Virus record (IMG/VR): IMGVR_UViG_3300027763_000059
Location: 1 to 64,000 of that record
Direction: 5' to 3' (one strand)
Source: a virus
Length of the DNA stretch: 64,000 nt
Shown here one piece after another: positions 5,930 to 62,490 of this stretch. The notes under the pieces were generated by a model that searched no databases, was not told the origin of the DNA, and worked only from the letters and a program-made list of their open reading frames with translations. The translations under genes and the position numbers were made by a program. Numbering within the stretch: position 1 is the stretch's first letter; the number at the start of each line of letters is the position of its first letter.

Positions 5930-6679
5930 ATGAAAATTAGTTCATACACAGTATTATCAAATCCACAGCTTGGAGATAAGTTAATTGGTACAGACGTTAA
6001 TGACATGGATGTAACCAAGAACTTTACAATTAGCTCTCTATTTCAACTTGGAGCTTCATCAGGATTATTTGTTCCCTACACGGGAGCAATTGATGATGTT
6101 GATTTAGGTTCAAATAGTATTACAGCTAGTTCATTTATTAAGTTAGGTGGTACATCATCTCAGTTCTTAAAGGCTGATGGTTCGGTAGATAGTAATACGT
6201 ATGCAACTTCTTTATACTACGGAAGTTTCTTTGATACAACTAATCAGACTGCTGCAGCTATAAATACTGCATATCCTGTTAAATTAAACGGGGTTTTTGG
6301 TAGTGCTACAAATGGTGTGTCTGTAATTTTAGATGCATTTAGTAATAAGACTATTATTAAGACAGCAAATGCAGGTGTATATAACATTGCATTCTCAGCT
6401 CAATTAAGACGTGGTAGTGGTGGATCTTCTGAGACGGTTGATTTTTGGTTGAGAAAGAACGGAGTAAATGTTGTTTACACAAATACATCTGTATCAGTTC
6501 AAGCTAACGCAGGCTTATTAGTAGCTGCTTGGAACTTCTTTATTCAGATGGATGCAGGAGCAGAAGCACAGTTAATGTGGGCAACTACATCAACTGCTAT
6601 TGATATGGCGTATGCAGGTGCAACAGCACTTCATCCTGAGACTCCATCAGTAATCTTAACAGTAAATAAAGTTTCCTAA
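5930..6679 (+). CDS. fibre protein with C1q/jelly-roll-like C-terminus
   Basis: The N-terminal ~90 residues have the low-complexity pattern of phage fibre shafts (GAIDDVDLGSNSITA, then GTSSQFLKADGSVDSNTYA). The remaining ~150 residues alternate strands with GVYNIAFSAQLRRG, VDFWLRKNGVNV and a final PSVILTVNKVS, which resembles C1q/TNF-like trimeric heads. Such heads are common on phage head or tail fibres and bind receptors or sugars. Being far from the main tail genes and close to terminase and portal, it could be a head fibre. The start overlaps nothing and follows the coiled-coil gene by 2 bases. Confidence 0.72.
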   Translation: MKISSYTVLSNPQLGDKLIGTDVNDMDVTKNFTISSLFQLGASSGLFVPYTGAIDDVDLGSNSITASSFIKLGGTSSQFLKADGSVDSNTYATSLYYGSFFDTTNQTAAAINTAYPVKLNGVFGSATNGVSVILDAFSNKTIIKTANAGVYNIAFSAQLRRGSGGSSETVDFWLRKNGVNVVYTNTSVSVQANAGLLVAAWNFFIQMDAGAEAQLMWATTSTAIDMAYAGATALHPETPSVILTVNKVS

Positions 6680-7469: not shown

Positions 7470-7753
7470 GCAATACAAAAGATATAAAGCTTAGGATCAT
7501 CGAGGCAGGTGAGTTTGCTGTTGAGCAACTCATTAAGGTAGCCAAGGAGCAGATTATTAAGCTTGACTCTGAGGACGATTTGGCCGCGGATAGATTAAAG
7601 AACGCTGCTGCTACAAAAAAATTAGCTATATTCGATGCATTCGAGATACTTAGCCGTATCGAGATGGAGAGAGAGAACATTGAGATCATGGAGCATGGTC
7701 CTTCAAAGACAGATACAAAACAAGGGTTTGCAGAACGTAGAGCAGGAAAATAG
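7466..7753 (+). CDS. small helical protein upstream of TerL, candidate small terminase or connector
   Basis: The 95-residue protein is almost entirely helical and charged (LRIIEAGEFAVEQLIKVAKE, then a helix through RIEMERENIEIMEHG). It lies immediately before and overlaps the large terminase gene, the usual place of a small terminase subunit, but it is shorter than most and has no visible helix-turn-helix. The overlap with the preceding gene is four bases (ATGA). Function by position only. Confidence 0.6.
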   Translation: MSNTKDIKLRIIEAGEFAVEQLIKVAKEQIIKLDSEDDLAADRLKNAAATKKLAIFDAFEILSRIEMERENIEIMEHGPSKTDTKQGFAERRAGK

Positions 7754-10700
7754 ACTATACCGAGTTGTAGAGAACCACGTTCCCTCCAAGGTAATGAGTC
7801 GCAAGAATGGCGGTAGGACTTGGGTATACGGGTATAACTCTGACTACGACATGGTTGTCATATCTAAGACAGGACAGGTTGGACAGGTTATAAATATCTC
7901 AGGACTAAACATTGGTTTGCCAATTGCACCAAAGGAGTGCATTAAGAGAGGAACGACATCACCCGATCAGTATTGGGAGAGAACAGACCTACCAAAGGAA
8001 CTAAGCAGGATACAGTCTATATTCCATTGGAATGATATGCCGTCTGAGTTTAAGAACAGGTGGGTAGACTACATTGAGAGAGAGTTTGATTACAGGGACC
8101 AAGGTTGTTGGTTCATGAATAAAGGAGTCCCAACATACATTACAGGATCGCACTATATGTACCTTCAATGGTCTAGTATTGATGTTGGGTACCCCGATTA
8201 CCGAGAGGCAAATAGAATATTCTTTATATATTGGGAGGCCTGTAGAGCAGACAACAGAAGCTTTGGGATGGTCTACTTAAAGATTAGACGTTCCGGGTTC
8301 TCCTATATGTCATCATCTGAGTGTGTCAACATAGGAACACTTGCAAAAGATGCAAGGGTTGGTATCCTATCCAAGACAGGATCGGATGCTAAGAAGATGT
8401 TTACAGATAAGGTAGTTCCAATCAATAGCAGACTTCCTTTCTTTTTCAAGCCAATCATGGACGGTATGGACAAGCCTAAGACAGAGCTTGCGTACCGTAT
8501 CCCGGCATCAAAGATTACAAAGAAGAATATGCACGAGCTTGATGACAACGAGATTCAAGGATTGGATACAACAATAGATTGGAAGAATACAGAAGAGAAC
8601 TCATACGATGGTGAGAAACTATTGTTCTTGGCACATGACGAATGTTATGCTCCAAATACAAAAATATTAATGAGTGACTTTACTTTTAGAGAGATAAAAG
8701 ATATTAATATTGGAGATAAGGTAATTGTTGAGGGAGGAATTGTGAAAACAGTTATGAAAAAAACAAATGGAATAGCTGATAGGTATATAGTTAAACAGCC
8801 TTATGGAGAAGATTATATAGTTACTAAAAACCATAGACTTGTATTTAATGAGTACAATAAAGGTGAGGTTATAATGAATCCTAAAGAGTATATTAATAGT
8901 TCTAAATTCAGAAAAAAACATTTAACAAGAATTACTTCAAAAGGAATTGAATCATCAGATAAGTTTGATGGTATACCTCCTTATTTATTAGGCCTATGGC
9001 TTGGTGATGGAAGACAAAGTTCATTAACAATATTAGTTAATAAATATGAAGAACCTGAGATATTACAATATTTAGGAAGGTTTGCAGATATTTATAATAT
9101 TCCATTTAAATTAATAAAAAGTACTTCAGATAAAATTATTGAGTTTAGATTTGAAGGAATTAATTCTGAACTAAGAAAATTAAATGTATATAACAACAAG
9201 CATATACCAATGCAGTATATGCAGTCATCTATTGAAACAAGACTTCAGTTATTAGCGGGTTTAATAGAATCTGATGGTTATTCAGATAAGAAAAAAAACA
9301 TCATATCTATAGGCATGAGTAGAAAAAATCTTATTGAGCAGATTAGATTTTTAGCATTATCTTGTGGATTAAGTTGTAGTAACGTTCAAGAACAAAATAC
9401 AAATTTTAATACTAAGTCATATAGAATAAGTATTTCAGGAGAATTATCAAGAATACCTTTGATTACTGAAAAGAAATCATTTGAAGGATATAAACCTATT
9501 AGCAGAGGTAGAAGAAATAAAGTGTCTGTAGAATATTTTGATAAAGGCGAATACGTAGGTATACAGGTAGATGGAGAAAATGATGATGAAAGAAAATTAA
9601 TACTTGGCGACTTTACTATTAGTATGAATAGTGCTAAATGGGTAAAGCCGAATAACATCCTAAACAATTGGCGTGTAACTAAGACGTGTCTACGTTTGGG
9701 TTCAAAGATTATTGGTAAGTGTATGATGGGGTCTACATCAAATGCGTTAAGCAAGGGTGGAGACAACTACAAGAAACTTTACGAGGACTCTCGCGTGACT
9801 ACACGTAATGCCAATGGTCAGACCAAGTCAGGACTATACGCATTGTTCATTCCTATGGAGTGGAACATGGAGGGGTTCATTGACAGGTACGGTATGCCTG
9901 TATTACGCAGACCACTAGATAAGATAAAGGGTGTAGACAATCAGTGGATAACTAACGGTGCTATTGACTATTGGGAGGCAGAGGTTGACTCGTTAAAGAA
10001 CGATCCGGATGCACTTAATGAGTTTTACCGTCAGTTCCCGCGCACAGAGTCACACGCTTTTAGGGATGAGAGTAAGTCATCACTATTTAACTTGACAAAG
10101 ATATACCAACAGGTAGACTACAACGATACATTAATTGAACAGCATTACTTGACACGAGGCTCGTTTCATTGGAGAGATGGTATTAGGGATACAAAGGTTG
10201 TATGGACACCTGACCCTAAGGGTAGGTTCTTAGTTAGTTGGCTGCCTGCTCAAAGGTTACAGAACAGAGTAACCGATAGGAGTGGGATAAGGTACCCTGC
10301 TAACGAGCACCTAGGGTCATTTGGATGTGACTCCTACGATATCTCAGCTGTAGTAGATGGGCGTGGATCAAACGGTGCGTTACATGGACTGACTAAGTTC
10401 CACATGGACGATGCTCCAACAAATGAGTTCTTCTTGGAGTACATAGCTAGGCCACAGACCGCAGAGATATTCTTTGAGGAGGTACTGATGGCGTGTGTGT
10501 TCTATGGTATGCCAATCTTAATTGAGAACAATAAGCCAAGGCTATTATATCACTTTAAGAATAGAGGCTACAGAGGATTTTGTTTAAGCAGACCCGACAA
10601 GCACTCATCTAAGCTCTCTAGGACAGAGAAAGAGCTTGGTGGTATACCTAACTCATCTGAGGACGTTAGACAGTCTCACGCGTCAGCTATTGAGGGATAC

Positions 10701-10964
10701 ATAGAGAAGTACGTTGGTTACGATTCTACAGGAGAGTACAGAGATTCAGATCAGATTGGTAGTATGCCATTTAACAAGACGCTAAACGATTGGGCAAAAT
10801 TTAACTACGATGACCGTACTAAGTTTGATGCCTCGATTAGTTCAGGGTTGGCTATTATGGCCAATCAGAAGCACTTATATGTGCCGGAGAAAAAAGAATC
10901 AAAAATAAGCATTAAATTTGCAAGATATAGTAATAAGGGACACAACAGTGAATTGATTCAATAA
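7728..10964 (+). CDS. terL: large terminase (ATPase-nuclease) interrupted by an intein
   Basis: TerL cuts and pumps DNA into the prohead. Reading outward from a TTG at 7728 the precursor has 1,078 residues, 749 after intein removal, a usual TerL length. The ATPase part has a degenerate Walker A (IRRSGFSYMSS) and Walker B LLFLAHDE, whose Glu is directly followed by the intein. Host sequence resumes at SAKW. The nuclease half shows an acidic block GCDSYDISAVVDG. An ATG exists at 7635 and another at 7695, but the residues from there look like the out-of-frame shadow of the gene before, so the start is placed at or near 7728. The C-terminus, IKFARYSNKG, is intact and the stop overlaps the next endonuclease gene. 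The sequence resembles crAss-like terminases. Confidence 0.9.
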   Translation: MQNVEQENRLYRVVENHVPSKVMSRKNGGRTWVYGYNSDYDMVVISKTGQVGQVINISGLNIGLPIAPKECIKRGTTSPDQYWERTDLPKELSRIQSIFHWNDMPSEFKNRWVDYIEREFDYRDQGCWFMNKGVPTYITGSHYMYLQWSSIDVGYPDYREANRIFFIYWEACRADNRSFGMVYLKIRRSGFSYMSSSECVNIGTLAKDARVGILSKTGSDAKKMFTDKVVPINSRLPFFFKPIMDGMDKPKTELAYRIPASKITKKNMHELDDNEIQGLDTTIDWKNTEENSYDGEKLLFLAHDECYAPNTKILMSDFTFREIKDINIGDKVIVEGGIVKTVMKKTNGIADRYIVKQPYGEDYIVTKNHRLVFNEYNKGEVIMNPKEYINSSKFRKKHLTRITSKGIESSDKFDGIPPYLLGLWLGDGRQSSLTILVNKYEEPEILQYLGRFADIYNIPFKLIKSTSDKIIEFRFEGINSELRKLNVYNNKHIPMQYMQSSIETRLQLLAGLIESDGYSDKKKNIISIGMSRKNLIEQIRFLALSCGLSCSNVQEQNTNFNTKSYRISISGELSRIPLITEKKSFEGYKPISRGRRNKVSVEYFDKGEYVGIQVDGENDDERKLILGDFTISMNSAKWVKPNNILNNWRVTKTCLRLGSKIIGKCMMGSTSNALSKGGDNYKKLYEDSRVTTRNANGQTKSGLYALFIPMEWNMEGFIDRYGMPVLRRPLDKIKGVDNQWITNGAIDYWEAEVDSLKNDPDALNEFYRQFPRTESHAFRDESKSSLFNLTKIYQQVDYNDTLIEQHYLTRGSFHWRDGIRDTKVVWTPDPKGRFLVSWLPAQRLQNRVTDRSGIRYPANEHLGSFGCDSYDISAVVDGRGSNGALHGLTKFHMDDAPTNEFFLEYIARPQTAEIFFEEVLMACVFYGMPILIENNKPRLLYHFKNRGYRGFCLSRPDKHSSKLSRTEKELGGIPNSSEDVRQSHASAIEGYIEKYVGYDSTGEYRDSDQIGSMPFNKTLNDWAKFNYDDRTKFDASISSGLAIMANQKHLYVPEKKESKISIKFARYSNKGHNSELIQ
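8643..9629 (+). mobile_element. TerL intein with LAGLIDADG homing endonuclease
   Basis: The 329-residue insertion starts with Cys (CYAPNTKILMSD, splice block A). It has a T-x-x-H block B (VTKNHRL, about residue 61), two LAGLIDADG helices (LLGLWLGDG near 114 and LLAGLIESDG near 202), and ends GDFTISMN before an extein Ser. Cys1, the final Asn and the +1 Ser are the residues needed for protein splicing. The penultimate residue is Met, not the usual His. The coding sequence is clearly more AT-rich than the flanking exteins. It interrupts the Walker B motif right after the catalytic DE, a classic place for inteins because the site cannot change. The endonuclease would copy it into intein-free terL alleles. 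Confidence 0.92.
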
Positions 10965-16702: not shown

Positions 16703-16739
16703 GGGTGTGTCTTCAAAGACACACCCTTCTTTTTATTTT
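16703..16739 (+). terminator. strong intrinsic terminator after the capsid gene
   Basis: GGGTGTGTCT (16703-16712) pairs perfectly with AGACACACCC (16717-16726) across a TCAA loop and is followed by a T-rich tract to 16739. It closes the scaffold-capsid unit. Confidence 0.9.
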
Positions 16740-22200: not shown

Positions 22201-23947
22201 AACTTTAGGGATTCCTGCTGTTATAGATACGAGTTTCTTTAACTGCTATGCGTTTGGTAACGGAGCAGAGAGCTACAAGATACTTGATTCAATTGTTGGG
22301 GACACGTTTAACTTGGGTAACCGAGTTACTGCTGTAGCCAATGAAGAGTACAAAGCAGCGAGAAGGTTGTCAGATATGACCTATAGTGGTGTATACAACA
22401 ACGAGACAAACGTAAATAAACTTAACGAGTTCAACTTAGGCTTGCTTAACTTTAAGCCGTTACAGAGCTCATTTGGGCCTATCTACATACTAGATGCTCG
22501 TCAGACTGACGTACTTGTTCTACAGGAGGATAAAATATCCTACGTGTTAGCAGGTAAGAACTTATTGTCTGATGCTGCCGGTGGTGGAGCTGTTACGTCT
22601 GTACCTGAGGTATTGGGTACGCAGATTGCGCGTACTGAGAAGTATGGTATTAGCTTTAACCCTGAGAGTTATATCCATTGGGGGTACGACAGATACTTTA
22701 CGGACGCTAAACGCGGAGCTGTCATTCAGCTTAAGGGTGGTATGTCAGAGATGGATCAGTTAACTGTTATCTCTGATGACAACATGAGCACTTGGTTCCG
22801 TGATTTATTCATCGAAGACTTTAATACTCAGAAACTTGGTGCATACGATCCTTACTTAGATGAGTACGTGTTAAGCTCTAACAATATTACTATACCAACC
22901 GTAACTAATTGTTTAGCTTGTGGTGTAACTCAAGAGTTTACATTTACAGAAGAAGTTAAAGGATTCGAGTACTGTGTTAACGTAGGTCAAATAGTTGGTG
23001 ACGTAGAGATTACGTACAACGTAATATCACTTCCTGTTGATGGAGAGTTCCAAGTTCAAGCTGAGTACAATGGAAATACATTTACAACGGGTATCGTTAC
23101 CACATCAGGTTCATTGGTGGTTAACAAGGACTCAAATATAGAGGATACTGTATTGGTGTCAATTGGAACAAACGGCCCTGCTGTACTTCAAATTAATGTA
23201 AACTGTCCAACAGCAAACGTGTTAAAGATTGTAGAGGTCGTATTGACAGCCGCATCTGAGGCAGGTCAATCAGTTCGTACAGAGTACAGATACACAGACG
23301 GTGCGTACGTTGGTTCATTGCAGTCTAACTTAGTGTTCTTTGATACGGGTACTAACCCGGTAGTGTCAAGGTACAATACAGTTATTGGCTTCCAAGGTAC
23401 AGCGAGCATTCCTACGGATAACAGTACAATGAGGATTATATCAAATGGTGGAGGGTTTCTTACATTCCAATTTGATCCTGCATCAGATAACTTTAGGTAC
23501 TTAAGAACTAACACGTTATACAACAACAACACTGTTGATATTAATGCATTGGTTACTGCATCAAATAATGCAGTTCCTATTTTGGGAGCAGGAGATTATT
23601 TCTACGCTGACTTTAACGTTGGTACTACAGACGACTACTTATACTTGATATGGGACTTTAGAAACTCTGAGCCTGTTGACCTTTGCTACTCTTCAACAGA
23701 AGAGGGCATCGCTGTTATATGCTGTGAATGTACCCCATGTGATGATCCATGTAAGTCTTGGAACTTTAGAAATGTTGGAGAGGGTATAGCTCACGTTCAG
23801 TACATAGACTGTAATGGAGCACGTCAAGATGTTTATATAAACGAGAAAGCAAATGAGACAGTATGTGCATTAGCATCTACTACACCACAAATAATCTCAG
23901 GAAATTTATTAATAACGGTTGTCCAAGAGTGTGGATGTCCAAACTAA
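19277..23947 (+). CDS. tail stabilisation / muzzle protein (P22 gp10-like), 1,556 aa
   Basis: The N-terminus (RNFTAGRMNKLVDQRLVPNG, then YVDALNVRMGS and NTKGN) is the signature of P22 gp10-like hub proteins, which have a beta-propeller-like fold. Long beta-rich insertions fill 400-950. The gp10-like core resumes around 990-1180 (GLLNFKPLQSSFGPIYILD, YGISFNPESYIHWGYDRYF). The last ~65 residues are a Cys-rich beta domain that resembles the end of the next gene product. In crAss-like virions this protein forms the muzzle closing the tail. The DNA coding for about 390-960 is more AT-rich than its flanks, suggesting exchange of surface domains. Confidence 0.85.
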   Translation: MSNITRNFTAGRMNKLVDQRLVPNGEYVDALNVRMGSTEQSEMGVIENTKGNLPLTEIGYIDGTPLSIEARCIGAFEDGSKETVYWFVHDPNFSVGATGKLDLIMSFNTLTNILTYHVISIDNGDGLDTTLNFNPKYLITAVNKIDDLLFFSDDYNPPRWINVAENYANPSPTNIDYYVAVPPTAIAPHPEILSERLKVVKKPPVESPTFQLTNTGGQQNFLHDTFICFAYRYRYENSQYSATSQFTLPAFLPGAFDFSASSLLNNGMQNSINTAIITYNSGGPLVVGIDLLFKDASNNIIKVIEKLNKADLGLVDNTDYTYTFSNSKIFTILPDYEILRLYDNVPRLAKAQTIMGNRLMYGNYLEGYDLLDKYGNPVNFQYYTELNTEDIGFINVQDATESGNYNIDGSVSIGDAVLSFDLSNSNLVSGSIISFDITLSHDSFSGSTPFPTEENVNVGITFSFILPTDYASVYDLAISASFQEAIGTIGNIQPITTACDGTTMTDVFNCVIAQNLNTYIKYNSGINAVGEPILIGTSPSSDFISLQFPVAVYVNNITTPTYTVYEYFNVIGSSITFQEISSTQSLHSNRGYEIGIVYMDDFNRSTTALVSKNNTVNVPCGNSQFKNYIRVTIPSSPVPQIAPSWATRYKFVIKPDKEDYNTIYSNLFFEDPNTNNVYFLLEGENARKVESGIRLIVKADTEGATNSCIYTTVLDKQSQQADFLEIPSSANPSVNLSIPAGVYIKINPNNFSVVFDEDAIKGGSTSQASMGIAGDFPAITYPMNGALSPTGPFIDYTVPQGSRIVMSFKFERKGTGSGNQNCERRIYTLEKTLTSSATYNNMKDWWDGDNVQAILNTGTQEVGGTGNCPVGNVYDPLLSSVPTVAPDLCNNKYQFIRDPSNNALYLYVSGTASCGDSDKKKSSVKVQITVYRADTTFIFETEPSEANPDIFFENDQSFEIDSNGQHKGNVLNQNLTLGIPAVIDTSFFNCYAFGNGAESYKILDSIVGDTFNLGNRVTAVANEEYKAARRLSDMTYSGVYNNETNVNKLNEFNLGLLNFKPLQSSFGPIYILDARQTDVLVLQEDKISYVLAGKNLLSDAAGGGAVTSVPEVLGTQIARTEKYGISFNPESYIHWGYDRYFTDAKRGAVIQLKGGMSEMDQLTVISDDNMSTWFRDLFIEDFNTQKLGAYDPYLDEYVLSSNNITIPTVTNCLACGVTQEFTFTEEVKGFEYCVNVGQIVGDVEITYNVISLPVDGEFQVQAEYNGNTFTTGIVTTSGSLVVNKDSNIEDTVLVSIGTNGPAVLQINVNCPTANVLKIVEVVLTAASEAGQSVRTEYRYTDGAYVGSLQSNLVFFDTGTNPVVSRYNTVIGFQGTASIPTDNSTMRIISNGGGFLTFQFDPASDNFRYLRTNTLYNNNTVDINALVTASNNAVPILGAGDYFYADFNVGTTDDYLYLIWDFRNSEPVDLCYSSTEEGIAVICCECTPCDDPCKSWNFRNVGEGIAHVQYIDCNGARQDVYINEKANETVCALASTTPQIISGNLLITVVQECGCPN

Positions 23948-55704: not shown

Positions 55705-55920
55705 TTATATTTTTGAACGTATTTCGTTGAATGATACGTTATTTCTTTGCTCATCTAATCTCGTCTCTATCTCGTATCTTTTTTGACCATGAACTATCTT
55801 TCCGTTTAAGTAGAATTGATTAGTTGATTTATGAGTCTTATCATCGAATTTTTGTGTACGAATCATCTTGTATTCGTTTCCATTGTGAATCAATGTGTTG
55901 ATGTGTTTAATGACTTCCAT
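55705..55920 (-). CDS. first gene of the leftward early operon, 71 aa
   Basis: MEVIKHINTLIHNGNEYKMI, then FDDKTHKSTNQFYLNGKIVH and a charged helical end. Basic, mixed fold. It follows the ~300-base structured leader and the promoter at 56227; leader ACACAACGACATG. As the first early gene it may act against the host, but no evidence fixes this. Confidence 0.62.
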   Translation of the reverse strand: MEVIKHINTLIHNGNEYKMIRTQKFDDKTHKSTNQFYLNGKIVHGQKRYEIETRLDEQRNNVSFNEIRSKI

Positions 55921-56009
55921 GTCGTTGTGTTTTAAAAGTTAGTCAATGCGGTGAGTATCGCTCTCATCAAATGCTCATTGCATCCGCATTGTTATTAGAT
56001 TGCACCACG

Positions 56010-56226
56010 CTTATATAGGTAGAATCGAACTACCACAATCTATAGGGGATGTCATGCTCCCCTTAATACCTTTCGGTATGCTTGCTCTATCTTTTCGGTA
56101 ACTAACCACCTGCTTTAGCTCGCAGTCTCTTGATACTAATACCCTCAAGTAAGGGAGTGACCTGTTGTAGATGTGTTACTGAACTTCGCATCATCTTACG
56201 GATTGCCGATTCCGTTTTAGCTGAAG
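56010..56226 (-). ncRNA. structured 5' leader of the early operon, with a tRNA T-arm-like hairpin
   Basis: Transcription from the promoter at 56227 would give a leader of about 300 bases before the first ATG. Read on the minus strand it holds successive hairpins: ACGGA/TCCGT (56215-56198), CCCT/AGGG (56155-56142), CTGC/GCAG (56125-56110), ATACC-GAAA-GGTAT (56079-56066), AGGGGA/TCCCCT (56063-56044), and GGTAG-TTCGATT-CTACC (56034-56018). The last is a perfect five-pair stem with a seven-base loop, like a tRNA T arm. No full cloverleaf is found. It could be a cis-regulatory element, a tRNA-like structure or a separate small RNA. Confidence 0.6.
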
Positions 56227-56234
56227 CAAAGATA
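56227..56234 (-). promoter_or_regulatory. promoter -7 element of the leftward early operon
   Basis: TATCTTTG on the minus strand (TAnnTTTG), preceded by AT-rich DNA. It is the only such element in the 800-base gap facing the 25-gene early block and probably its main promoter. Confidence 0.75.
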
Positions 56235-56710
56235 TGTATTCTTTGTGTAACTAATGCACATTAAATGAATTATTTTTGTGCAATACTCTGTATCCCTTAT
56301 ACAGCAAGGGATTCACGAGTAGTGATGAACGAAAGTTTTTTAAGATGCTAGGGAATAAAGGGATTGATTGCCTATAATTAATTAGTTAGGATAGAAATTC
56401 GAGGGGATGTTAAGCCTTCTCTCGCTGTATGCGTATTGTATTCGTGTCTTCGAAGACACAGCACCGCGCGAAACGTAGCAACAGCCTATGTGCTACAGCC
56501 TAGTGGGATGCCAATACGTAGCATGGACAAGGGATGCGGACGTAAGGGATGACCATGTGCGCGTCTAGTCCCTAGGGAAAAGCCAAAAAATCTGCAGGAA
56601 ATTTCCCTTTTTGCACCCCCCCACCTCGTTTAAAAAGCAGTTTCCGATCGGGGGCCGAGCGCGTCAAACGTGGTACAACCCCACTACTACGGATATCTAA
56701 TATTATTTTT
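56235..56710. other. non-coding control region, candidate origin
   Basis: About 475 bases without a gene lie between divergent transcription units. AAGGGAT occurs at 56306, 56358, 56529 and 56544, with one inverted copy at 56292 forming a perfect 7-base hairpin with the first. Palindromes include GTGTCTTCGAAGACAC (56454-56469), CCCTAGGG (56571-56578) and GGAAATTTCC (56597-56606). The part from 56610 to 56690 is unusually GC-rich. Repeats, palindromes and divergent promoters suit a replication origin or packaging start; direct proof is lacking. Confidence 0.55.
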
Positions 56711-56718
56711 TACCTTTG
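56711..56718 (+). promoter_or_regulatory. promoter -7 element
   Basis: TACCTTTG (TAnnTTTG), 15 bases before the ATG at 56734. It drives the first rightward gene after the control region. Confidence 0.7.
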
Positions 56719-56733
56719 TAAAAACTTAAGATT

Positions 56734-56952
56734 ATGATGAACAAGAAAGGAAACTTAGACGGACTAGAGGTACGTAACGGAAGGTTGATTAACAACGCGC
56801 CTGATGGTATGACCGGAATCCAAAAGATTGCGATTGCAAGAAAGGCAATGCGTATTGAAGAGAAGACCATGATCATGGAAAATGCAATGTATCGAGCAGA
56901 GATGAGAGCTGATATGATGGAGAACATGATGGGTAGTAAGGGCATAGACTAG
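56734..56952 (+). CDS. Met-rich small protein, 72 aa
   Basis: MMNKKGNLDGLEVRNGRLIN is followed by a helix with many Met (MRIEEKTMIMENAMYRAEMR); 12 of 72 residues are Met. It has its own promoter (56711) and terminator (56975). Such monocistronic small genes suggest an abundant product, perhaps a virion or DNA-binding protein. No family recognised. Confidence 0.65.
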   Translation: MMNKKGNLDGLEVRNGRLINNAPDGMTGIQKIAIARKAMRIEEKTMIMENAMYRAEMRADMMENMMGSKGID

Positions 56953-56974
56953 TCTTTTATCGCAACTTTTTAGG

Positions 56975-57005
56975 AAGGGAGGTTTTTATTAATCTCCCTT
57001 TTTTT
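56975..57005 (+). terminator. intrinsic terminator
   Basis: AAGGGAGG (56975-56982) pairs with TCTCCCTT (56993-57000), 10-base loop, T run to 57005. It ends the 72-residue gene's transcript. Confidence 0.85.
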
Positions 57006-57011
57006 ATGTTC

Positions 57012-57105
57012 TATGTCGATAATCGACATAATTATTGATTTTTATGTCGAGAGAATGTCGACTAAAGTACTGATAATCAACTCACTGTCGATAATGTCGA
57101 TTTTA
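57012..57105. repeat. TGTCGAT repeat array, copy B
   Basis: TGTCGA(T) occurs at 57014, 57023 (inverted), 57045, 57056, 57086 and 57095. The first two make TATGTCGATAATCGACATA, a 19-base palindrome with perfect 9-base arms. The last two form TGTCGAT-N2-TGTCGATTTTAT, almost the same as at 46644-46664. The region has no gene. Confidence 0.78.
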
Positions 57106-57129
57106 TCTTCTAATTCTAGTGGGAAAAAA

Positions 57130-57178
57130 ATTATATATATAATAATATATATATATATATATAGAGAAACTATTTTTG
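57130..57178 (+). promoter_or_regulatory. AT-only tract and TAnnTTTG element beside array B
   Basis: Alternating A/T (57131-57163) leads into TATATAGAGAAAC and TATTTTTG (57171-57178), a TAnnTTTG match. This mirrors the AT tract beside array A. No gene follows directly; the next ATG that fits a real gene is at 57344. Confidence 0.5.
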
Positions 57179-57203
57179 TCAATTGACAGGATTAAAATTT
57201 TTA

Positions 57204-57812: not shown

Positions 57813-59423
57813 ATGCAAGGACAAGGTTATATGCCGAAGGATTTATACTTCGAGGAGGAGGGCAGACGAAAGTTAATCTCCGGTGTTAAGAAGATGGCAG
57901 CAGCTGTCAAGAGTACGTTGGGTCCCCACGGGAACACGGTACTTATAGAGTCACCACACCACACACATGGTATCACAGTAACAAAGGACGGAGTGACGGT
58001 CGCTAAGTCGATCGAGCTAATGGATCCGGTTGAGAACCTAGCGGTCAAGATGATGAAAGAGGCATCTGACAGGACGGCTACTACAGCGGGTGACGGAACG
58101 ACTACGGCAATCGTGTTGACTGAGGCCATGGTATTGGGTGGTATGGAGCTCATCAAGCCTGAGCACAACAGAACTCAGGTGCTAAGGCACATGACAGAGA
58201 TAAGTGACTTGGTAGTTGAGCGTCTTAAGAAGAAGAGCAAGAAGGTCACTACGGGGATGTTAGCGGACGTTGCGACCATCTCGGCAAACAATGACAGGAC
58301 CATAGGTAAGATAATCGCTGACGTGTACAAGGACGTTGGTAAGACGGGTATCGTAACGGTTGAGAAGTCACAGTCGACTACAACATACGCTGAGACCACA
58401 GACGGACTACGCGTACAGAGGGGGTACTTATCGCCTATGTTTATAAATAATCAGGAGAAGGACGAGTGTGTCTTTGACGACACGCTTGTGTTGGTCTCTG
58501 ACATGGAGATAGGGAACATACTACAGATCGAGGCTGTGTTGAAGCCACTCGTTAAGGACGGGAAGAAGCTGTTGATCATCGCGCCTTGTTCTACAAACAT
58601 GACAAACACCTTGGCTGCTAACGTAGTTAAGAACGGTTTAAAGATATGCGCTATCCAACCACCGAACTTCGGGTACAAGCAGCACGAGCTGATGCAAGAC
58701 ATCGCGGTAAGTGTTGGTGCTACCTACTTCAGTGAGAAGACGGGTGACGACTTGAGCCACATGACGTACGCGGACTTGGGTCACGCGGGTAAGGTGATCG
58801 TTGGACGAGACGAGACCATCATCATGACGAGTGATGTGAAGGCTGACCAAGCAGAGATAGACGAGAGAGTCGCTCAGTTGTGGAAGGCTAACGAGGCAGC
58901 TACGAAAAAGAACGACAAGGACTTCATCTTGGAGCGAATTGCATCCCTAACGGGTGGAGTTGGTGTCATCTTTGCAGGTGGGAACACTGACCTAGAGCAA
59001 AAGGAGCTGTACGACAGGATTGATGACGCGGTTTGCGCGGTACGTTCAGCCTTGGAGGAAGGAATTTTGCCGGGTGGTGGTAAAGCCTTGGGTGAGATGA
59101 ACATATTCGAGGGCTTAGGCTTCGCAACTGACACACAGGAGAAGGTAATCGCTGCTAAGATCATGCAGTTGGCTGTAAATATGCCACTGATGCAGATCCT
59201 TAAGAACGCGGGTGTACCATTTGAGGACGTAGCGGACTGTATGGTAAACGATGGCTTTGGATACAACGTAAAGACAGGTGAGAAGGGTGACCTAATCAAG
59301 ATGGGCGTAATCGATCCGTTAAAGGTAACACGCTCAGCACTGCAGAACGCGGTGAGTGTAGCGGTTACGATACTAAGTACTAACGCTATCGTAACGATGG
59401 CACGCACAATCGGTGTAGAATGA
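57813..59423 (+). CDS. groEL: phage-encoded chaperonin GroEL (Hsp60)
   Basis: The 536-residue protein matches GroEL from end to end: VKSTLGPHGNTVLIE and VTKDGVTVAKSIELMDPVEN in the equatorial domain, the ATP motif TTAGDGTTTAIVLTEAM, the apical start GLRVQRGYLSPMFINNQEKD and hydrophobic groove, SLTGGVGVIFAGG, and SALEEGILPGGGKALGEM with the ATP-hydrolysis Asp upstream (RIDDAVCAVR). It lacks the Gly-Gly-Met tail. Length is close to the usual 545. It should form a ring that folds proteins, presumably capsid or tail subunits. groES overlaps its stop by four bases (ATGA). Operator palindromes lie upstream. Confidence 0.96.
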   Translation: MQGQGYMPKDLYFEEEGRRKLISGVKKMAAAVKSTLGPHGNTVLIESPHHTHGITVTKDGVTVAKSIELMDPVENLAVKMMKEASDRTATTAGDGTTTAIVLTEAMVLGGMELIKPEHNRTQVLRHMTEISDLVVERLKKKSKKVTTGMLADVATISANNDRTIGKIIADVYKDVGKTGIVTVEKSQSTTTYAETTDGLRVQRGYLSPMFINNQEKDECVFDDTLVLVSDMEIGNILQIEAVLKPLVKDGKKLLIIAPCSTNMTNTLAANVVKNGLKICAIQPPNFGYKQHELMQDIAVSVGATYFSEKTGDDLSHMTYADLGHAGKVIVGRDETIIMTSDVKADQAEIDERVAQLWKANEAATKKNDKDFILERIASLTGGVGVIFAGGNTDLEQKELYDRIDDAVCAVRSALEEGILPGGGKALGEMNIFEGLGFATDTQEKVIAAKIMQLAVNMPLMQILKNAGVPFEDVADCMVNDGFGYNVKTGEKGDLIKMGVIDPLKVTRSALQNAVSVAVTILSTNAIVTMARTIGVE

Positions 59424-59677
59424 AGGCAATCGGAAAAAATTTAGTGATTAAGACAGTAGAGGAGGAGATTAAGACCTCATCCGGTCTACTCTTGTCGGGA
59501 GAGGACTCCAATCAGATGAGATACAAGAAGGCTGTTGTCGCTGTCGCGGGTACGGACGTGAGTGCAATTAGCACGGGCGACTACATCTACTACGACAAGT
59601 CAAATAGCTACACGATGGTCATCAACGATGAGCAGTACACAATAATTCAGGAGAGAGACGTGGTGGTTGTACTATAG
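59420..59677 (+). CDS. groES: co-chaperonin GroES
   Basis: The 85-residue protein, slightly shorter than the usual 95-97, has MKAIGKNLVIKTVEEEIKTS, the mobile loop SSGLLLSGED that docks on GroEL, VVAVAGTDVSAISTGDYIYY and the final YTIIQERDVVVVL strand. It caps the GroEL ring. Translation is coupled to groEL through an ATGA overlap. Confidence 0.93.
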   Translation: MKAIGKNLVIKTVEEEIKTSSGLLLSGEDSNQMRYKKAVVAVAGTDVSAISTGDYIYYDKSNSYTMVINDEQYTIIQERDVVVVL

Positions 59678-60925: not shown

Positions 60926-61138
60926 ATGGAACTAAGAACAGTTGTTACAGGCGTAAGACGCGATAGCATTGGACTAGGCGACACGATAGAGAAGTTCACG
61001 AGGGCAACAGGAATTAAGAAGTTTGTTGACACGGTATCTGATCTAACAGGAGTTGACTGCGGTTGTTCCGCGAGAAAGGAGGCTTTAAATGAGCCAAATA
61101 TATTAGTAAATAAATTATTTTATAATAAAGACAAGTAA
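60926..61138 (+). CDS. conserved small virion-associated protein, 70 aa
   Basis: MELRTVVTGVRRDSIGLGDT, then KFTRATGIKKFVDTVSDLTG and DCGCSARKEALNEPN. The F-T-x-A-T-G-I-K-K...D-C-G-C-x-x-R-x-x-x-L-N pattern recurs in many phages next to fibre or spike genes; no defined function. The next gene starts on its last base. Confidence 0.7.
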   Translation: MELRTVVTGVRRDSIGLGDTIEKFTRATGIKKFVDTVSDLTGVDCGCSARKEALNEPNILVNKLFYNKDK

Positions 61139-62490
61139 TGGCAGTAGTACCATCAGGACAGAAGTTTCACACGGTAGCAAGTACTGTAGTGACAACAAAT
61201 TTAGGATCAGCTTTAGCTAACGCACAGCGTGAGATCTTTACGATGCAGGACATCATCGACACTGTCGGAGGTGGATTGGGAGGAACTCAGTATGTATTTG
61301 TAGCCGCAGATGGTACAGATTTAGAGAACGCAGCAGAGCTACAAGCGGCTTATGTTACAGCTACGGGAATGTCTCCAAGTGCAACAAATAGAATCACTGT
61401 AATAGCTGCTCCGGGTAACTATAATTTTGATACTGTGAATTTTGTAATGGACACATCGTACATTGACTTAGTTTCATTAGATGGAAATAGGAGCATAGTA
61501 TTTAATGGCATAAATACAATAGAGATAACTGCAAATGATGTATTTGTCAGAGGTGTAGATGTCGGAACATTAAACTTTGCAATAGCAGACTCATTAAATT
61601 TATTAAAGGTTGAAAACTGCTCAGGCGGAGCTAATTCATTTAGTGTCCCTTATGGCACAATATTAGGTACGTTCACTAATTGCACAGGTGGAGATAATTC
61701 ATTTGGTGGTGATGGTTCCACAGCATCAGGTGTGTTTACTAATTGCATAGGTGCAAATTTTTCATTTGGAAGTGGTTATGATAGTTCCACAGCATCAGGT
61801 GTGTTTACTAATTGCATAGGTGCAAATTTTTCATTTGGAAGTTCTTCATTTGGTGGTTCATCAGCATCAGGTGTGTTTATTGATTGCACAGGTGGTATAG
61901 CATCTTTTGCCGCAGGTGGAGCCGCATCAGGCATATTCACTAATTGCATAGGTGGAAATTCACAATATGGAAACGGTTCATTTGGTGGTGGTTATGCACA
62001 ATATGCGTCAGGAACATTTACTAATTGTAAAGGAGGTAGTAGTTCATTTGGTGGTGGTGGTGGATCAGCCGAAGGTGTATTTATTGATTGCCAAGGTGGA
62101 GATTCTTCATTCGGTGGGTCAAGCGGAAATGCATCAGGTGTATTCACTAATTGCACAGGTGGAGATGATTCATTTAGTGGTAATGGTGGCACAGCAAGTG
62201 GTGTGTTTAATAGTTGCATAGGTGGAGATCGGGCATTTGCCGGTCAAGGAGGCACAGCAAGTGGTGTGTTTAATAGTTGCATAGGTGGAGATCGGCCATT
62301 TGGTGGTCAAGGCACAGCAAGTGGTGTGTTTAATAGTTGTATAGGTGGAAATCGGGGATTTGGCGAAAGTGGCACACTTGATGGATTTTTATATTATTGC
62401 AGACTAACATCAGGGACATTTGCAACTGTATCAGGTTTTGGTAGAACTGTATTATGTATAGATGGAAATAACGATCAAAATAATCAATAA
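61138..62490 (+). CDS. beta-solenoid fibre/adhesin with tandem repeats, 450 aa
   Basis: The N-terminal ~150 residues include ITVIAAPGNYNFDTVNFVMD, as in pectate-lyase-like virion proteins. Residues ~160-425 are 12-13 repeats of 20-25 residues built as A-S-G-V-F-x-N-C-x-G-G-x-x-S-F-G-G, one turn each of a right-handed beta helix with a Cys ladder. Gly-rich turns vary in length. The repeats are nearly identical in DNA in places (59 bases exact, 69 apart). The chain ends with a non-repeat cap. A long receptor-binding or depolymerase-like fibre is likely, with a repeat number that may vary by recombination. Confidence 0.8.
   Translation: MAVVPSGQKFHTVASTVVTTNLGSALANAQREIFTMQDIIDTVGGGLGGTQYVFVAADGTDLENAAELQAAYVTATGMSPSATNRITVIAAPGNYNFDTVNFVMDTSYIDLVSLDGNRSIVFNGINTIEITANDVFVRGVDVGTLNFAIADSLNLLKVENCSGGANSFSVPYGTILGTFTNCTGGDNSFGGDGSTASGVFTNCIGANFSFGSGYDSSTASGVFTNCIGANFSFGSSSFGGSSASGVFIDCTGGIASFAAGGAASGIFTNCIGGNSQYGNGSFGGGYAQYASGTFTNCKGGSSSFGGGGGSAEGVFIDCQGGDSSFGGSSGNASGVFTNCTGGDDSFSGNGGTASGVFNSCIGGDRAFAGQGGTASGVFNSCIGGDRPFGGQGTASGVFNSCIGGNRGFGESGTLDGFLYYCRLTSGTFATVSGFGRTVLCIDGNNDQNNQ
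61715..62355 (+). repeat. tandem DNA repeats in the fibre gene
   Basis: 61715-61773 and 61784-61842 are identical over 59 bases. A 45-base block starting GGCACAGCAAGTGG occurs at 62188 and 62251 and, nearly, at 62311. Period 60-69 bases, always a multiple of three, so gain or loss keeps the frame. Confidence 0.8.

Follow-up and report, generated by a model that had tools for sequence, protein, structure and literature searches.

A candidate tRNA mimic in the early leader of a GroEL-encoding phage and the exchange of tRNA-like elements with hammerheads in related phages

Does a T-arm-like hairpin in the untranslated leader of a phage early operon reflect imitation of a tRNA, and, if so, what might such a mimic do in an mRNA? 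The question is raised by a stretch of 64,000 nucleotides, hereafter the window, taken from a phage record in IMG/VR that is 64,114 bp long. Besides GroEL/GroES (57813-59677, plus strand), the window encodes a P22-like portal, a Sak-like annealing protein and a primase that contains a BT4734-like domain. Among named phages, the closest relatives of this primase were found in a spring metagenome phage (MW202828) and a Flavobacterium Elemovirus. Comparison of the DNA with phage and plasmid records gave no similarity. An early operon of 17 kb runs on the minus strand from approximately 56221 to 38760.

Several other features of the window were recorded. A 72-aa ORF upstream of groEL (56734-56952, plus strand) was kept in more than 20 relatives at 44-78% identity and had no PHROG match, and the intergenic block around it (56570-57200) was likewise conserved. 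A 1109-aa protein (7635-10964, plus strand) with Hint and LAGLIDADG homing-endonuclease domains was read as a structural or terminase protein interrupted by an intein, and a protein with many imperfect repeats (ASGVFTNCIGG...SFG; 61138-62490, plus strand) probably represents the repeat region of a fibre or an adhesin-like protein.

Structure and conservation of the early leader

A preliminary description had proposed an early promoter followed by an untranslated leader of about 300 nt, and the sequence agrees with this: the predicted leader spans approximately 56221-55921 on the minus strand, with a -7 box at 56234-56227 and the first ORF starting at 55920. A pattern scan gave no relatives of the first two early proteins. 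The features of the locus are as follows.

56227-56234, minus strand: Bacteroidota-type -7 promoter element TATCTTTG of the early promoter (sequence)
56198-56215, minus strand: hairpin H1, ACGGA-ATCGGCAA-TCCGT, 5' part of the leader (sequence)
56170-56195, minus strand: hairpin H2, with loop GAAGTTCAGTA common to L084/L085, 5' part of the leader (sequence)
56129-56149, minus strand: hairpin H4, CTTGA-GGGTATTAGTA-TCAAG, 5' part of the leader (sequence)
56066-56079, minus strand: GNRA hairpin, ATACC-GAAA-GGTAT (sequence)
56045-56062, minus strand: hairpin GGGGA-N8-TCCCC, directly 5' of the candidate tRNA mimic (sequence)
55996-56042, minus strand: candidate permuted tRNA-top-half mimic comprising P1, T-arm and D-loop-like 3' strand (covariation, pattern scan, model R1)
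56018-56034, minus strand: T-arm, GGTAG-TTCGATT-CTACC (sequence and relatives)
56003-56017, minus strand: near-invariant, D-loop-like linker TATATAAGCGTGGTG (alignment)
55938-55994, minus strand: three-way junction P2/P3/P4, then CTAAC (model R1, alignment)
55705-55920, minus strand: 71-aa ORF, gene 1 of the early operon (sequence)

Both the GNRA hairpin (56079-56066) and the T-arm (56034-56018) were exactly as previously described. L002, the closest of the phages that share the leader, retained only the 3' 110 nt, in which the T-stem GGTAG/CTACC had become GATGG/CCATC around an unchanged TTCGATT loop. A pattern scan of IMG/VR added L083, L084/L085 and L088, and a second scan with the T-arm left out added L089/L095, whose loop TTCAATT obeys the TTCRA rule. 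The leaders of L084/L085 and of L089/L095 form near-identical pairs, the loci share ancestry, and IMG/VR records may be fragments. The L088 row was aligned minus an 80-nt insert lying between the two parts.

The preliminary description had named a lack of compensatory changes in relatives as one outcome that would speak against it, and such changes were present. Within the 3' 110 nt, all 26 base pairs were kept in six phages, with 100% of alignment cells paired, and 14 of the 26 showed two-sided changes, against 7.0 +/- 1.7 in shuffled alignments and 0-2 when the alignment was slid. RNAalifold recovered a nearly identical 26-pair structure unaided. The folding energy of the single leader was weak (z = -1.81, with 5 of 100 shuffles as good). 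From the covariation, we regard the structure as almost certainly real and conserved.

The 5' hairpins and the GNRA hairpin were variable. H1, H2 and H4 were also found in L084, and H4 in L083/L089, whilst L002 had none of the three. H1 showed one compensatory change in L084/L085 (ATGGA-ATCGGTAA-TCCAT) and was absent from L002, L083 and L088. The H4 stem was altered yet paired (CCGA/TCGG in L084, TCGA/TCGG in L083/L089) around a near-constant loop, GGGTATTARTR, with one difference in L089. The GNRA hairpin was not conserved in L002 or L084. TAnnTTTG occupied the equivalent position before the leader in L002 and L084, and was not found in the stretches of L083 and L088 tested. Genes downstream of the leader differed between phages.

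In the conserved part, P1 (AGATTGT/GCAATCT) has 7 bp, the one nearest the T-arm being U-G, and the T-stem lies on its 5' side, giving 7+5 = 12 stacked bp, the size of a tRNA acceptor plus T-stem. The loop TTC[GA]ATT and the G53-C61 pair were kept whilst the T-stem covaried (GATGG/CCATC, GAGGG/CCCTC). The preliminary description had found that no D arm fits; this requires correction, in that the 3' end of the linker, AAGCGTGGTG (56012-56003), is invariant and resembles a D-loop strand (YGGT), and the linker portion ATAAGCGTGGTG was identical in all six alignment rows. Relative to a tRNA, the order of the parts is swapped, the T-arm coming first and the D-like strand after. The element thus carries every part of a T-arm/elbow module (5-bp stem, G53-C61, TTCRANN loop and a reachable GG strand), and we infer that the GG strand would dock on the T-loop. 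The stated lack of a 7-base anticodon loop held: the only conserved 7-nt loops were the T-loop and AGCGATA of P4, which has no U33. The other junction loop, that of P3, is AATGA, and ATG follows CTAAC; across the alignment AGCGAYA was invariant and the other loop mostly AATGA. Taken together, the leader element is probably a mimic of the top half of a tRNA.

No known RNA family accounted for the leader. The window record had no match to RF00005 at E <= 1, ARAGORN found no tRNA in the window, and a scan of Rfam 15, as had been suggested, matched the leader to no family at gathering cut-off; sub-threshold matches (BLV packaging, SscA, L20 leader) were dismissed as chance. The hammerhead core (CUGANGA...GAAA) is absent, as is any RF00008 match in the window, and a hammerhead identity of the three-way junction was rejected on the missing core. 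Nothing favoured the riboswitch-like element also suggested previously: a metabolite riboswitch is disfavoured because the downstream genes are unrelated, no terminator/antiterminator pair was seen after the leader and no Rfam match was found. T-arm pattern matches in L107 (Pseudomonadales; within an FKBP-type coding region) and in L082 and L087 (IMG/VR) were judged chance, and a weak match to model R2 in the Elemovirus (6271-6321) was rejected as lying within a primase/helicase gene. A DUF805b cis-regulatory RNA identified by Rfam in L083 (1594-1626, minus strand) is unrelated to the T-arm, though L083 has the permuted leader.

tRNA-like elements and hammerheads before early genes of related phages

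A T-arm scan of GroEL-phage loci showed that related GroEL-bearing phages carry tRNA-like elements in the normal order, either mini-tRNAs (acceptor, TGGT strand and T-arm) or pseudo-tRNAs lacking a proper anticodon loop. The common form comprises P1 (6-8 bp), a TGGT-bearing strand, a T-arm of 5-6 bp and, directly abutting it, P1', as in L021 (TCTGAG-AATGGTTGTA-GGGATG-TTCGATT-CATCCC-CTCAGA). Longer forms (L011/L143, L018, L026, L060, L066) possess a D-arm and a hairpin replacing the anticodon arm, the tetraloops or other loops of which do not look able to decode. The usual site is a gap between early genes, 19-45 nt 5' of an ATG, with unrelated genes downstream. Some pseudo-tRNAs passed the Rfam tRNA cut-off. 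Matches to the tRNA model above cut-off were located at 523-630 and 637-697 of MW202828, 40839-40926 and 44389-44490 of G007, and 22641-22749 of G009, several being unusually long (85-109 nt).

Enrichment was assessed with permuted loops, which provide an independent and fair control. The set contained 41 T-arm hairpins (mean 5.4, maximum 16 for 59 permuted loops), 12 of them in 5'UTRs (0.42, maximum 3). Elements with an outer stem numbered 36, a count that takes in two true tRNA genes (Lys in L089, Met in the Elemovirus), against a mean of 1.7 and a maximum of 7, and 22 lay no more than 60 nt before an ATG (0.41, maximum 3). GG was present in the linker of 36/36 elements compared with 47/101 pooled control matches, YGGW in 30/36 compared with 18/101, and a total helix of 12-13 bp (12 in tRNA) in 26/36 compared with 30/101. 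Model R3, trained on seven elements, recovered copies in L002, L036 and L066 outside its training set; covariation in the R3 alignment is partly built in, because its sequences were gathered by requiring pairing.

Hammerheads were found at the same kind of site. Rfam identified two type III hammerheads in L036 (2991-3045 and 4056-4109, minus strand), and 23 of 49 GroEL-phage records had matches (E <= 0.01), 1-4 per record and between early genes, most of these being below the Rfam cut-off, which three records pass. A scan for the core plus three helices yielded 36 distinct hammerheads; applied to 476 kb of simulated sequence, it gave none. All 36 were intergenic and, where a neighbour was found, lay 15-59 nt after a stop and 14-54 nt before an ATG. 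A hammerhead-like match below the Rfam cut-off was also seen in the cultured Flavobacterium phage elemoF (MT497071, 17865-17921).

The two kinds of element exchanged before orthologous genes. A 300-aa protein family was preceded by a hammerhead in L036, L005 and L011 and by a T-arm element in L021 and L024; a 40-aa family by a hammerhead in L030, L034 and L040 and by a T-arm element in L024; and a membrane-protein family by a hammerhead in L014, a three-way junction in L051 and a T-arm element in L005. Elsewhere the 300-aa gene had a GTGTC hairpin alone or no element, and the cassette is therefore optional. The same GTGTC-GACAC hairpin stood 5' of 28/36 hammerheads, of several T-arm elements and of the junction in L051, which was identified by eye (21.5 bits with R1) and has GC-rich stems and the loop AGCGAAA. 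In the window, GGGGA-N8-TCCCC stands directly 5' of the candidate mimic, and many relatives have a hairpin, often GTGTC-GACAC, immediately before the putative processing element. Junctions without a T-arm also lay between early genes in L064 and L048. A hairpin, GTGTCTTCRAAGACAC, that in relatives stands 5' of the putative processing elements occurred in the window at 56444-56459 (divergent promoter region) and at 16707-16722 (between two late genes).

Judged by these positions, tRNA-like elements and hammerheads are interchangeable before early genes, and part of the exchange at the three families could stem from common descent or from frequent early genes being reused by chance. Exchange was shown in the relatives, not in the window, because most permuted-leader phages, like that of the window, had no clear normal-order element; the exception, L002, has both forms. 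A hammerhead was found in 0/7 of the permuted-leader phages searched and in 23/42 of the others (nominal p 0.01, uncorrected for kinship). No description of this arrangement of tRNA mimics and hammerheads was found in the open-licence papers searched.

A proposed role in cleavage of early transcripts

The leader mimic probably marks a cut site in the mRNA, because the mimics of relatives occupy hammerhead sites. Our main reading is that the tRNA-top-half mimic marks a site of RNA cleavage, most likely for host RNase P (probability of roughly 0.5); that RNase P itself makes the cut is an even chance at best. RNase P reportedly gauges distance from the elbow down the stacked T-stem and acceptor and needs the T-loop, whilst the D-loop seems dispensable (PMC4919913). 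Since the elements replacing hammerheads keep what RNase P reportedly needs, punctuation by RNase P is favoured. RNase Z or another elbow-binding enzyme is a possible substitute (PMC4810234).

The leader RNA, with its 12-bp helix, T-loop cap and dockable YGGT strand, would resemble a tRNA in its elbow and acceptor half. It would belong to a set of 5'-UTR cassettes (mini-tRNAs, pseudo-tRNAs, the permuted mimic, the three-way junction and type III hammerheads) placed after the stop of an early gene and ahead of the next ATG, able to replace each other and fixing where the early transcript is cut, as 'tRNA punctuation'. Hammerheads would cut themselves, and the mimics would be cut by host RNase P on the 5' side of P1, which in the leader predicts a cut near 56042/56041. 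Each cut would give the downstream mRNA a structured 5' end, protected by the element, and the released upstream RNA a 3' hairpin protecting its end; the leader cut would also free a structured 5' RNA of approximately 175 nt.

The geometry of an RNase P substrate, a T-stem/acceptor stack of about 12 bp with a T-loop, is present in the window (7+5 bp). The 3' RCCA contact is missing, no CCA following the elements, and this is weak evidence because two inspected phage tRNA genes also lack CCA. We know of no RNase P substrate with the permuted topology. Among the earlier ideas, a tRNA mimic recruiting host tRNA-processing enzymes fared best of three: mimicry is supported by the acceptor-like stem, GG strand and T-arm of hammerhead-interchangeable elements at early-gene heads in relatives, whilst recruitment of an enzyme is something we infer from sequence. 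The function of the junction is the least certain part; a new ribozyme and a stabilising structure are both conceivable. The fullest version, in which hammerheads interchange with decoding-dead tRNA mimics cut by RNase P (one a non-circular permutation) and the junction is a new class of self-cleaving ribozyme, is an improbable extension.

Cutting might instead be enzyme-free, as in hammerheads, were the T-arm element, the junction or both new self-cleaving ribozymes. They share the intercistronic sites of hammerheads, the junction replaces one before an orthologous gene, and its invariant loops (AGCGAYA, and mostly AATGA) are typical of active RNA; pistol and hatchet were discovered by examining ribozyme-rich sites (PMC10085705). 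However, the T-arm constraints are those of a tRNA (G53-C61, TTCRA, GG strand, 12 bp) and needless for a ribozyme, and known ribozyme cores are absent, leaving this explanation doubtful. The elements could also be cleavage-free protein-binding sites at cistron heads, controlling translation or mRNA stability through a phage translational regulator, a TruB/TrmA-like enzyme or the ribosomal elbow contact. Their placement fits, with 19-45 nt separating them from the ATG of genes that are unrelated, as does the range of elbow binders beyond RNase P (the ribosome, RNase Z, TruB and CCA enzymes; PMC4810234), yet hammerheads at the same sites and the hairpin just upstream of both kinds of element would go unexplained; we hold this to be unlikely.

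Two further explanations fare worse than cleavage at a tRNA mimic. A put-like leader, by which RNA-modified polymerase would read through the 17-kb early operon, would suit a single copy right after the early promoter with varying genes downstream, but single modules are also found between genes far inside the operon, and a simple scan found no strong minus-strand terminator inside it, so that processive antitermination appears very unlikely. Decayed phage tRNA genes, or a functionless chance T-arm, would be least probable of all. True tRNA genes do exist in relatives (L089, Elemovirus), and certain pseudo-tRNAs score as tRNAs in Rfam, but the helices are maintained by compensatory changes, loss of the anticodon with retention of T-arm, GG and acceptor in frequent pre-ATG positions would be unexpected, and simple decay cannot produce the permuted form.

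Comparison with known systems

If correct, these findings would bring a novel class of tRNA-like structure to light in DNA phages, together with a permuted tRNA elbow and, in the 57-nt three-way junction, a short candidate for a new ribozyme or processing site. With tRNA (RF00005) the elements share the size of the 7+5 bp coaxial helix, the TTCRANN T-loop with G53-C61 and the YGGT strand, but they have no anticodon arm, and the window has its D-like strand 3' of the T-arm. Non-tRNA substrates of RNase P (tmRNA, 4.5S RNA, and viral and lncRNA tRNA-like structures) have a similar T-arm/acceptor-like stack, whereas the candidate substrates here recur between the genes of a phage early operon and are interchangeable with hammerheads. 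Mitochondrial tRNA punctuation likewise places tRNA-like elements between the genes of a polycistron; here they would be decoding-dead mimics in phage mRNA. The put RNA of phage HK022 is also a structured RNA starting an early operon, and differs from the leader modules in structure and in that these are also placed at other points of the operon.

Natural non-circular permutations of ncRNAs, in which functional parts are kept and their order changed, are described in PMC10085705, but for other RNAs, and swapping of tRNA T and D parts does not feature in the available part of that source. Bacterial and phage type III hammerheads (RF00008) share with the T-arm elements the intercistronic niche, the upstream hairpin and orthologous downstream genes, and differ in possessing the hammerhead core. 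Gene associations of bacterial hammerheads are strongest near Mu-like phage genes, for a reason given as 'still unknown' in PMC10085705; tRNA mimics at the gene boundaries that hammerheads occupy would offer a concrete, testable answer, namely mRNA processing.
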